From NCBI RefSeq assembly GCF_030064895.1, contig NZ_JASJEB010000001.1:1-64000 (forward strand): 64,000 nt of DNA, read 5' to 3'. Both the position numbers and the translations under genes were made by a program. This document shows, one piece after another, positions 2,960 to 48,184 of this stretch (position 1 is its first letter; each line of letters begins with the position of its first letter). Under the pieces are notes generated by a model, which saw nothing but the letters and a program-made list of their open reading frames with translations, made no database searches and was not told where the DNA came from. This stretch comes from Crocosphaera sp. (GTDB taxonomy: Bacteria > Cyanobacteriota > Cyanobacteriia > Cyanobacteriales > Microcystaceae).

Positions 2960-2980
2960 TAACTGATAACTGGTCATTTC

Positions 2981-3097
2981 ATTTATCATTTATCATTTAT
3001 CATTCGTTTGGAAGTAGGCTTGAAACCTCTACCAAACTTTTTTCTCCCTAAAGGGAGAGGCTTGAAACCAAAATGTTCAATGTTCAATGTTTGGTAA
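2981..3097. repeat. Dispersed composite repeat, copy 1
   Basis: The block begins with (TTTATCA)n heptamers, continues through a CATTCGTTTGGAAGTAGG segment and a hairpin around CTCCCTAAAGGGAG, and ends with (GTTCAAT)n heptamers and TTTGGTAA. A second copy with the same order of parts lies at 39118-39276. Further heptamers (GGTAACT-like) follow to about 3113. This is a cyanobacterial short tandem repeat cluster built around a conserved core and is noncoding. Confidence 0.8.
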
Positions 3098-16029: not shown

Positions 16030-16542
16030 TTATTTACTTCCAGCTTGGACGCATTGTTCAACCAAAGGCATTACAGCATCAACGTCTTTCCAACCTAAAA
16101 TTTCTGTGACTTTTTTCTCCAGATTTTTATAGGTACGGAAAAATTCCGCAATTTCTTCTAAACGGTGAGGAGCAATGTCTTTAAGAGATTTTACTTCAGC
16201 AAAGCGTGGATCTTCTACAGGGACACAAAGCACTTTTTCATCGCGATCGCCACCATCGATCATTTCTAACATACCAATGGGACGAGCTGCAATCACACAG
16301 CCGGGGAAAGTGGGTTGATCAATGATCACCATCCCATCTAAAGGATCACCGTCATCCGCTAAGGTATTGGGAACAAACCCATAGTCGTAAGGATACTGTA
16401 CCGAGGCAAACAAAACGCGATCGAGAGCAAAGGCGTTCATATCCTTGTCATATTCGTATTTATTCTTGCTTCCTGCAGGAATTTCAATTAAAACATTGAT
16501 TAGACCAGGTTCAGGTTGAGCCGGAATGAGTGATAAGTCCAC
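16030..16542 (-). CDS. ppa: Inorganic pyrophosphatase
   Basis: This is a family I soluble pyrophosphatase (170 residues), hydrolysing pyrophosphate to drive biosynthesis in the cytoplasm. Metal- and substrate-binding marks are visible: [25 protein letters not shown] and the [10 protein letters not shown] metal-binding loop, plus the later VPVEDPRF and KSLKDI segments. It is full length. Its 5' end faces the six-unit repeat array, so its promoter must lie in the 95 bp before the array or inside the array's first unit. Confidence 0.97.
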
Positions 16543-16708
16543 GATTTTCTCCGAATGCTTACTAATTACTTTGATTAAGGAAGATAGTCCATAATCTTTC
16601 CTTCGGTGCTTATTTTACAACGAATTTTGACCCAAGGTTGATATTAATCACATGATTGCTGTGATCTAAACTATTGAGGCTAAGAGAAAAAGAGAAGATA
16701 ATAAACAC

Positions 16709-16782
16709 AGGATTCAAAAAGCTGGTGCATACAAACACCAAGAGGTTATTTATTTTTTCACAATGGATAACCCATTTTTTTT
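16709..16782 (+). ncRNA. Predicted sRNA, array unit 1
   Basis: The promoter is TTGAGG (16674-16679), 17 bp, GATAAT (16697-16702). A dyad ATCACA/TGTGAT lies at 16647-16665, about 9 bp upstream of the -35. The 5' hairpin is TGGTG/CACCA (16723-16740) with an 8-nt loop. The terminator arms are 16744-16754 and 16762-16772 (11 bp with two U-G pairs), followed by CATTTTTTTT. The start is estimated from the -10. Confidence 0.65.
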
Positions 16783-16867
16783 ATCTATTTTCTATATTGA
16801 TATTAATCACATAATTGCTGTGATCTAAACTATTGAGGCTAAGAGAAAAAGAGAAGATAATAAATGC

Positions 16868-16943
16868 AGGATTCAAAAAGCGGGTGCATACAAACACCAA
16901 GAGGTTATTTATTGTTTTTTACAATGGATAACCCATTTTTTTT
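16868..16943 (+). ncRNA. Predicted sRNA, array unit 2
   Basis: It has the same layout, with GATAAT at 16856-16861. The terminator stem extends to 13 bp here, because GGTTATTTATTGT faces ACAATGGATAACC with two U-G wobbles, and ends in an 8-T run. The 5' hairpin is GGTG/CACC. Confidence 0.65.
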
Positions 16944-17028
16944 ATCTATTTTCTATATTGATATTAATCACATAATTGCTGTGATCTAAACTATTGAGGC
17001 TAAGAGAAAAAGAGAAGATAATGAATGC

Positions 17029-17101
17029 AGGATTCAAAAAGAGGGTGTATACAAACACCAGGGGGTTATTTATTTTTTCACAATGGATAACCCATTTTTT
17101 T
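17029..17101 (+). ncRNA. Predicted sRNA, array unit 3
   Basis: GATAAT lies at 17017-17022. The 5' hairpin is GGTGT/ACACC, where the C-to-T change adds a base pair relative to the other units. The terminator stem and CATTTTTTT are intact. Confidence 0.65.
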
Positions 17102-17186
17102 ATCTATTTTCTATATTGATATTAATCACATGATTGCTGTGATCTAAACTATTGAAGCTAAGAGAAAAAGAGAAGATAATAAACGC

Positions 17187-17257
17187 AGGATTCAAAAAAC
17201 TGGTGCATACAAACACCAGGGGGTTATTTATTGTTTTCACAGTAAATAGCCTCTTTT
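17187..17257 (+). ncRNA. Predicted sRNA, array unit 4
   Basis: GATAAT lies at 17175-17180 and the -35 is TTGAAG. The terminator arms GGTTATTTATTGT and ACAGTAAATAGCC differ from the other units but still pair over 13 bp through U-G wobbles. The T-run is weaker (CTCTTTTC). Confidence 0.6.
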
Positions 17258-17344
17258 CTATCTATTTTCTATATTGATATTAATTATATGATTGCTGTGA
17301 TCTAAACTATTGAGGCTAATAGAAAAAGAGAATATAATAAATAC

Positions 17345-17418
17345 AGGATTCAAAAAGCGGGTGCATACAAACAGCAAAGGTTTATTGATTGTTTTTTACA
17401 ATAAATAAACCCTTTTTT
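17345..17418 (+). ncRNA. Predicted sRNA, array unit 5
   Basis: This unit has the best -10, TATAAT at 17333-17338, 17 bp from TTGAGG at 17310-17315. The left arm of the upstream dyad is decayed. The terminator is GGTTTATTGATTGT with ACAATAAATAAACC: both arms changed together relative to other units, leaving 13 of 14 positions paired, before CTTTTTT. The 5' hairpin is disrupted (CAGC instead of CACC). Confidence 0.6.
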
Positions 17419-17503
17419 CTATTTTTTATATATTGACAATAATCACATGATTGCTGTTATCTAAACTATTGATGCTAAAGGAAAAACAGAAGATAATTAT
17501 CTC

Positions 17504-17577
17504 AGATTCAAAAAGCAAGTGCATGAAGATGCACAGGGTTATTTATTGTTTTTCACAGTAGATAACCCTTTTCTTTT
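17504..17577 (+). ncRNA. Predicted sRNA, array unit 6
   Basis: This is the most diverged unit. TTGATG (17469-17474), 17 bp, GATAAT (17492-17497). The 5' hairpin is rebuilt as GTGCAT-GAAG-ATGCAC, a perfect 6-bp stem. The terminator GGGTTATTTATTGT/ACAGTAGATAACCC forms 14 bp with two U-G pairs before TTTTCTTTT. Retained structure despite changed sequence supports function. Confidence 0.6.
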
Positions 17578-17595
17578 AAATGCTAAGGTAATTAG

Positions 17596-18381
17596 TTATG
17601 CTCTAAATTGTTTTTCTACAGCCTGGAGCAAAAATTCTCGAGGAAAGAAGCGAGAACTATTGACGATTAAGTTATTAGTAATGCCTCCTGTTACTACATT
17701 TGCTTGCTTATTTTCTAAAGCTTTGAGTGCATCTTTAACCACAGTTTGCGCTGATGTTAAACTGCCATTATTTTTATTTTCAAAACTTTGAGGAAAATCA
17801 GCAACTTCAAAGAAATTTGATTCTGTTGGCCCCGGACATAAGGCTAAACAATTGATCCCTTTGTCCTTATTTTCTGCCCATAATGCTTCTGTGAAACTGA
17901 GAACAAACGCCTTTGTAGCTGCATAAGTGGATAAATATGGTAAAGCTTGAAAACCAGCAATAGAAGCTACATTGACGATACTACCTTGTCCCTGTTGTTG
18001 CATTGGAGATAAGAATAAATGGGTTAACTCCACCAAAACAGTCACATTGAGTTGAATCATCTCTAACTGTTTCGATAATTCTCGTTCAGCAAACGGACCA
18101 TAATCCCCAAATCCGGCATTATTAATCAAACAATCTACCCTGAACCCCTGATCTTGAACCTGCTTATACACCTTTTGCCCTGCCTGGGGTTCGGTTAAAT
18201 CTTGTACAATGACTTCAACATTGATAGATGCCGTTTCCTTTAACTGTTTAGCTAATTTATCTAGTTTGTCCTGGGAGCGAGCAACTAAAATGAGATTAGT
18301 CCCAGAAACTGCTAATTCTTCGGCAAATGCTTGTCCAATGCCCGAAGATGCGCCGGTAATTAGAGCGGTTTTGATTACCAT
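17596..18381 (-). CDS. Short-chain dehydrogenase/reductase
   Basis: This 261-residue classical SDR has the cofactor motif GASSGIGQAF, the structural NNAG and the catalytic YAATK (Tyr-x3-Lys) with an upstream Ser in VNVASIAG. It resembles the DltE/YqjQ-like SDR group, whose substrates are mostly unknown. The protein is complete. The gene is convergent with the sRNA array; the last array terminator ends 19 bp from its stop codon and may help to end both transcripts. Confidence 0.88.
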   Translation of the reverse strand: MVIKTALITGASSGIGQAFAEELAVSGTNLILVARSQDKLDKLAKQLKETASINVEVIVQDLTEPQAGQKVYKQVQDQGFRVDCLINNAGFGDYGPFAERELSKQLEMIQLNVTVLVELTHLFLSPMQQQGQGSIVNVASIAGFQALPYLSTYAATKAFVLSFTEALWAENKDKGINCLALCPGPTESNFFEVADFPQSFENKNNGSLTSAQTVVKDALKALENKQANVVTGGITNNLIVNSSRFFPREFLLQAVEKQFRA

Positions 18382-39117: not shown

Positions 39118-39276
39118 TTTATCATTTATCATTTATCATTTATCATTTATCATTCGTTTGGAAGTAGGGGCGAGGTAACCTCGCCCCTACTTGAAACCTC
39201 TCCCAAACTTCTTTCTCCGGGACGGGAGAGGCTTGAAACCAAAATGTTCAATGTTCAATGTTCAATGTTTGGTAAT
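39118..39276. repeat. Dispersed composite repeat, copy 2, with nested palindrome
   Basis: It has the same order of parts as the copy at 2981-3097: (TTTATCA)n, CATTCGTTTGGAAGTAGG, CTTGAAACC, a CCTCTCCC/GGGAGAGG hairpin, and (GTTCAAT)n. It carries an extra 27-nt perfect palindrome (39164-39190, core GGGGCGAGGTAACCTCGCCCC) absent from copy 1. With the palindrome at 39301 it fills most of the gap 38905-39326; no gene is supported there. Confidence 0.8.
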
Positions 39277-44449: not shown

Positions 44450-44567
44450 TATAGCACTTCTCATACTTGTGAGGTACAGAGTTTTCTAGTTTTAGGAGTT
44501 CGGAGTTCGGAGTTCGGAGTTCGGAGTTAGGTATTAGGTGTACCTCATGAGTCCGAGAAAGGCTATA
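44450..44567. mobile_element. MITE with IS630-like terminal inverted repeats
   Basis: The element starts TATAGC...GTGAGGTACA (44450-44478) and ends with the inverted counterpart TGTACCTCATGAG...GGCTATA (44539-44567). The arms match at about 23 of 29 positions. Inside are (GGAGTTC)n heptamers. The arms resemble those of the adjacent IS630 element, with which it shares the TA at 44566-44567. It has no transposase. With the IS left end it fills most of the gap 44341-44665. Confidence 0.7.
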
Positions 44568-48149: not shown

Positions 48150-48184
48150 CAGTTACCAGTTAGCAGTTACCAGTTATCAGTTAA
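48150..48184. repeat. CAGTTAC-type heptamer repeat
   Basis: Five heptamers (CAGTTAC, CAGTTAG, CAGTTAC, CAGTTAT, CAGTTAA) lie in the clpP leader region. They are typical cyanobacterial short tandem repeats. Confidence 0.8.

Follow-up and report, generated by a model that had tools for sequence, protein, structure and literature searches.

We analyzed a 64,000-nt stretch of genomic DNA from Crocosphaera sp. (the window) and found a single tandem array at 16638–17578, for which Tandem Repeats Finder gave a period of 158, 5.9 copies and 87% matches. Splitting the array at the repeat start yielded units of 159, 161, 158, 158, 159 and 150 bp. This confirmed an earlier note on the same DNA, which had placed six tandem units of 158–161 bp at 16638–17577, except that the sixth is shortened. 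Six unit matches were obtained in the window's own genome by DNA search, and an RNA covariance model also gave six. The array is located between ppa and a short-chain dehydrogenase gene, with ndhM beyond ppa. Tandem heptamer repeats were also seen elsewhere in the window (2979–3004, 39118–39154, 39243–39269, 44495–44528 and 48150–48183). Features of the locus are given below; CRP sites are candidates, and covariance-model (CM) scores and fold z values are shown for the predicted small RNAs (sRNAs).

16030–16542, minus strand: ppa, inorganic pyrophosphatase, divergent neighbor (PF00719, E 2.4e-58)
16637–16652 and 16660–16675, plus strand: unit 1 candidate CRP sites by motif, distal (GTTGATATTAATCACA, 8/10) and proximal (CRP-family)
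16697–16702, plus strand: -10 box GATAAT of unit 1
16708–16782, plus strand: predicted sRNA copy 1 (CM 79.6 bits, E 3.3e-13; fold z -2.05), start inferred near 16709
16796–16811 and 16819–16834, plus strand: unit 2 candidate CRP sites by motif, distal and proximal
16856–16861, 17017–17022, 17175–17180, 17333–17338 and 17492–17497, plus strand: -10 boxes of units 2–6
16867–16943, plus strand: predicted sRNA copy 2 (CM 93.1 bits, E 3.9e-16; fold z -3.51)
16957–16972 and 16980–16995, plus strand: unit 3 candidate CRP sites by motif, distal and proximal
17028–17102, plus strand: predicted sRNA copy 3 (CM 67.5 bits, E 1.4e-10; fold z -3.27)
17115–17130 and 17138–17153, plus strand: unit 4 candidate CRP sites by motif, distal and proximal
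17186–17261, plus strand: predicted sRNA copy 4 (CM 72.5 bits, E 1.1e-11; fold z -6.72)
17273–17311, plus strand: unit 5 candidate CRP sites, distal degraded (ATTGATATTAATTATA, 6/10), proximal (17296–17311) kept
17344–17420, plus strand: predicted sRNA copy 5, with a paired terminator change (CM 86.8 bits, E 9.3e-15; fold z -1.47, not significant alone)
17432–17470, plus strand: unit 6 candidate CRP sites, distal ATTGACAATAATCACA (8/10), proximal half-site altered to TGTTAT
17502–17577, plus strand: predicted sRNA copy 6, which has diverged most and has a 6-bp hairpin at its 5' end (CM 74.5 bits, E 4.3e-12; fold z -6.28)
17596–18381, minus strand: short-chain dehydrogenase, convergent downstream neighbor (PF00106, E 5.2e-50)

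At the DNA level, the unit was present in 17 of 78 genomes, including its own. The earlier note had proposed a covariance-model search across cyanobacterial genomes. Our model, based on 30 homologous RNAs (without one G007 unit, the G002 copy and the G001 copy, which is truncated at the edge of its contig), matched 26 of 50 genomes of the host family (Microcystaceae), representing 10 of 14 genera, and 9 of 388 genomes of the class, all nine belonging to the host family; stricter filters were applied in both cases and may have hidden weak homologues. Named hosts of unit-like stretches were Crocosphaera (including C. watsonii WH 8501, with four copies), Cyanothece sp. BG0011, Aphanothece, Chroococcus, Snowella and Chlorogloea. 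A scan of named genomes returned 21 stretches, 6 of them from non-cyanobacterial records, which showed no strong covariance-model match (best 28.1 bits) and were therefore taken as chance. Among matching genomes, tandem arrays occurred only in Crocosphaera. The nine genomes of this genus had 6, 4, 3, 3, 2, 3, 4, 1 and 1 matches (the third 3 includes one weak match, the second 4 spans four contigs and the first 1 lies at the edge of a contig). Outside the genus, each of the 17 matching genomes had one copy. Mean unit identity was 0.885 within genomes (29 pairs) versus 0.794 between Crocosphaera genomes (181 pairs). With regard to gene context, ppa adjoined the RNA in 5 of 10 loci whose neighbors were read (the window, L012, L019, L050 and L100). 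By reading, the RNA was beside an nth-like gene in G041 and G027, near an htpG-like gene and a tRNA-like stretch in G020, and in other surroundings in G018 and G010. In C. watsonii WH 8501 (L050, 1574–3085), a reverse-transcriptase/maturase-like ORF, named by reading and probably a group II intron, was located beside the sRNA array at the expected ppa start.

Both an intrinsic terminator and a conserved RNA structure, which characterize genes for bacterial trans-acting sRNAs, were found. Terminator-like sites numbered 11 versus 0.2 in shuffled sequences, the 11 including small 5' hairpins and minus-strand matches. In an alignment of 41 homologues, 97.2% of 602 stem cells were paired versus 37.5–52.7% with slid partners, 53 cells were double-changed, compared with 13.5 in shuffles and no more than 13 when partners were slid, and double changes affected 10 of 15 stem pairs; as this alignment was fitted to the model, these pair counts lean towards it. 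A free alignment of 30 RNAs showed double changes in 7 of 15 pairs of the terminator stem. Stem changes thus keep pairing across homologues, as had been claimed for the units themselves, and we did not see the frequent breaking of pairs in relatives that would have spoken against it. Also present were the paired changes in both terminator arms of unit 5 and the 6-bp 5' stem of unit 6 (GTGCAT/ATGCAC). The small 5' hairpin folds in some homologues, not all, and in single folds it shifts in register and sequence (GGTG/CACC, GTGC/GCAC, ATGC/GCAT and GTGCAT/ATGCAC). The best-conserved part of the RNA is the 5' strand CAGGATTCAAAAAGCGGGTGCATA; in relatives, the constant stretch described previously is longer than first noted. 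Indels between homologues make a common reading frame unlikely. These features support the proposal that the units are separate putative sRNA genes with their own terminators, an organization conserved in other genera.

Each unit had also been assigned a -35/-10 pair with a 17-bp spacer. Such pairs were found in all six units, but they are not significant alone, because a scan gave 7 promoter-like sites in total versus 6.2 in shuffles. The TTGA “-35” is not kept across relatives, being confined to some members of the genus and a few others; what is kept is the -10 box and the CRP-type sites. The latter form a pair of neighboring CRP-family sites with a spacing of 23 bp, and the distal site has the motif TGTGA-N6-TCACA. 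The upstream dyad that the earlier note ascribed to a binding factor is better interpreted as the facing halves of this pair than as a single site; the factor itself is supported and is likely CRP, judging from the motif. The distal CRP-like 16-mer was centered at -66.5 (±1) from the G of GATTC, a fixed promoter position as expected for a CRP regulon: at least 7 of 10 matches were found there in 34 of 40 promoters, versus 0–2 of 40 at 12 other offsets. At offset +24, which corresponds to the proximal site, the CRP motif was found in 14 of 40 promoters. Not among these 40 promoters were the G002 copy, which has no site, the G013 copy, whose site is perfect, and weak extra copies of G004 and G006; the G002 and G013 copies were scored separately for the site core. 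At least one promoter carried the distal site in 21 of 24 genomes (the three without were G028, G033 and G037), and perfect distal sites were found in G009, G012 and G013. Taking the A of CAGG as the transcription start (16709 in unit 1), as the earlier note guessed, would put the site centers at -64.5 (distal) and -41.5 (proximal). Cyanobacterial CRP promoters have a -10-like box approximately 22 bp downstream of the CRP site according to the accessible part of PMC2633013, and the proximal site fits this spacing. Besides, G004 (L028 and L032; distal scores 5 and 4) and G002 (L018; no site) have scattered single copies of the RNA outside the main array whose distal sites are poor, which weighs against the CRP reading. 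In G018 (L070, upstream of 1503), three CRP-like sites or half-sites approximately 23 bp apart (-89.5, -66.5 and -43.5) were seen instead of two.

The window's genome codes for a CRP-type protein (L106, contig G000:C103) with cNMP-binding and Crp HTH domains, probably the SyCRP1 orthologue. Its orthologues (E ≤ 1e-50) were detected in 42 of 50 family genomes and in 21 of 26 RNA-bearing genomes. The five RNA-bearing genomes without an intact orthologue were G002, G016, G028, G033 and G037. G002 is 79% complete, and its RNA copy has no CRP site. In G028, G033 and G037, the orthologue is a pseudogene present only as pieces with stops, and the best nearby distal scores were 5, 7 and 6, respectively. 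G016, at 99% completeness, retains a site scoring 8/10, a point against the CRP reading. Overall, the CRP gene accompanied the site core in 20 of 22 genomes (exceptions G016 and G033). A Fisher test over the 26 genomes, in which G016 and G033 count as CRP-less with a core and kinship is ignored, gave p = 0.014. Of the 24 family genomes in which the model found no match, 21 also have CRP, an observation that we count against the explanation preferred here.

The units, their spread, stem covariation, CRP motifs at fixed spacing and an intact CRP gene are read directly from the genomes. On this basis, we consider it probable that the array represents a new sRNA family that is activated by CRP, acts by base pairing and has been tandemly amplified in Crocosphaera, with each unit a complete gene for a trans-acting RNA of approximately 75 nt. 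Transcription, activation by CRP, base pairing, a dosage effect and the existence of targets are all predicted from the sequence. cAMP-bound CRP (L106) would bind the distal site at approximately -64.5 and the proximal CRP-family site at approximately -41.5, if the start is the A of CAGGATTC, and would activate the conserved -10 promoter. The 5' single strand of the transcript (about AGGAUUCAAAAAGCGG) would pair with target mRNAs and would be followed by the small hairpin and the intrinsic terminator. Tandem duplication in Crocosphaera would raise dosage and let copies drift in the pairing region.

The sRNA family could be real and its upstream sites could serve another regulator of the Crp/Fnr family (NtcA or an L108-type paralogue), either in place of CRP or alongside it. 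Many genomes have GTG-N8-TAC or GTG-N8-TAT as the proximal site, and three have GTA-N8-TAC; the CRP-less genomes G016 and G002 have the L108 paralogue (74% and 89% identity), with G016 keeping the sites. However, the distal site agrees with the CRP consensus, without a mismatch in three genomes, and it is poorest in the three genomes with a broken CRP gene, although NtcA (92–94% identical, with an open frame) and the L108 paralogue (64–65%) are intact there. We regard this alternative as unlikely. It is quite improbable that the block is conserved as a DNA or terminator element without a functional sRNA, for example as a two-way terminator for the convergent neighbors, with the A-run and 5' hairpin acting on the opposite strand; minus-strand terminator-like matches at the 5' hairpin and weak minus-strand covariance-model matches (E 0.0016–0.008) are consistent with it, but conservation is strongest in the unpaired GATTCAAAAAGCGGG stretch together with the upstream activator sites and the -10 box, the gene neighbors differ between genera, and stopping transcription does not need six copies. 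The least probable reading, a tandem repeat spread by slippage without selection, with redundant or dead copies, would suit the likeness of units within a genome, the missing distal site of unit 5 and the divergence of unit 6, but not the conservation of a single-copy RNA in 17 genomes of other genera or the compensatory stem changes.

Judging from genome size and pseudogenes, the three reduced genomes with a broken CRP gene are presumably those of nitrogen-fixing diatom endosymbionts. The GTA-N8-TAC sequence is their proximal site (loci L079, L074 and L068 of G028, G033 and G037, respectively); we take it to be the NtcA consensus, in which case the site reads as an NtcA box. A GTA-N8-TAC box anywhere in a shuffled 100-mer of the same composition was found in 2.8% of cases. 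Their genus mates G021 and G042 have GTG-N8-TAC at this position. As the three genomes are close relatives, they represent at most one event.

The stretch ATTCAAAAA was proposed in the earlier note as the putative contact sequence for targets. We searched 12 genomes for complements of one 19-mer (up to 3 mismatches) and two 14-mers (1 mismatch), considering matches away from the sRNA loci. These searches gave 17, 48 and 23 matches versus 13, 32 and 12 for reversed-pattern controls, a weak excess. Flanks were read for 17 of 17, 39 of 48 and 23 of 23 matches, and no leader site was conserved in more than 2 of the 12 genomes. Recurrent orthologous matches were within or antisense to coding sequence, with two exceptions, both named by reading: the leader of an RND-pump-like gene (G006 and G008), for which seemingly orthologous matches in other genomes begin past the site, and the start region of an ABC-transporter-like gene (G003 and G005). 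Neither gene is claimed as a target. The most striking match, a 20-nt perfect complement of sRNA copy 1, was found in the window's genome (G000 contig 42, 20370–20389; L141, 10370–10389). It lies in a prophage with terminase, tape-measure and repressor families, where a 120-aa ORF follows 25 nt downstream and a divergent HTH repressor is close by. With a simple composition model, the six copies together would be expected to give approximately 8e-5 matches of this kind, but this one was found after the fact. The complement may be a captured fragment, and two scans of viral contigs revealed no other copy. A broader scenario, which we offer tentatively and consider doubtful as a whole, is that the RNA forms an RNA branch of cAMP-CRP signaling, that its control passed from CRP to NtcA in the three reduced genomes, and that variant copies in Crocosphaera act on different targets, among them possibly an early mRNA of the prophage.

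The earlier note knew of no named family matching these RNAs, and Rfam 15 indeed gave no match at the gathering score in the window; a permissive search gave three sub-threshold matches to unrelated non-cyanobacterial families (E up to 5). Rfam holds the Yfr1 and Yfr2 families, which are likewise conserved cyanobacterial sRNAs. CyaR and Spot 42 are CRP-controlled sRNAs of enterobacteria; compared by description only, they resemble the present RNA in CRP control, here predicted, and differ from it in that the latter has a cyanobacterial host, two adjacent sites and tandem copies. TCCGGA, the DIF core, was absent from the locus (L001), which in this respect lacks the DIF1 motif of NsiR1.

In the available portion of PMC9045159, NsiR1 of Nostoc sp. 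PCC 7120 is described as an RNA of approximately 60 nt with 12 tandem copies, individual promoters and diverged outer copies, located upstream of hetF, HetR-dependent, with a DIF1 motif and heterocyst-specific. The array shares with it the tandem copies of a cyanobacterial sRNA, each with its own promoter; unlike NsiR1, it lies beside ppa and a short-chain dehydrogenase gene and has CRP-type sites. NsiR1 was rejected because promoter, map place and host group differ, as far as that source describes them, and no model match was found outside the host family among the 388 class genomes. PmgR1/Ncr0700, also an sRNA of Synechocystis, is a free-standing gene in PCC 6714 in the portion of PMC5386190 consulted. 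G041 is taken here to be Synechocystis PCC 6714, since genes 12 and 13 of this genome resemble D082_00120 and D082_00130, the homologues of slr1213/slr1214 in PMC5386190. Map position led us to reject PmgR1: in G041, our RNA maps to 3.362 Mb, whereas TU3047/Ncr0700 interpolates to approximately gene 2665, near hoxH at 2.603 Mb, a placement that depends on G041 being PCC 6714. PsrR1 and PmgR1 bear the adjacent numbers ncr0690 and ncr0700 in an excerpt of PMC12850537. Nc117 (Ncr1600) was rejected since the accessible text of PMC5946031 places it between slr0550 and slr0551, not beside nth. Multiple copies are also known for Yfr2, with one to nine genes in the same part of PMC5386190. The literature searched, partly available as excerpts, contained no CRP-controlled cyanobacterial sRNA and no array like that of Crocosphaera. 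Within that literature, trans-acting sRNAs in tandem copies are a known kind, and the family, its CRP promoter and a possible hand-over to NtcA appear to be new; the RNA may be listed unnamed in Synechocystis transcript tables.

Known targets of cAMP signaling in Synechocystis are mostly motility and cell-surface genes, according to the part of PMC4759255 available. The CRP-like promoter sites suggest an RNA branch of cAMP signaling in these cyanobacteria, an idea that is testable in a tractable strain because Synechocystis-like genomes have a single copy. If true, cyanobacterial cAMP signaling would gain a conserved post-transcriptional output, and amplification in unicellular nitrogen fixers, together with the apparent change of regulator in reduced genomes, would provide a natural series for sRNA rewiring.
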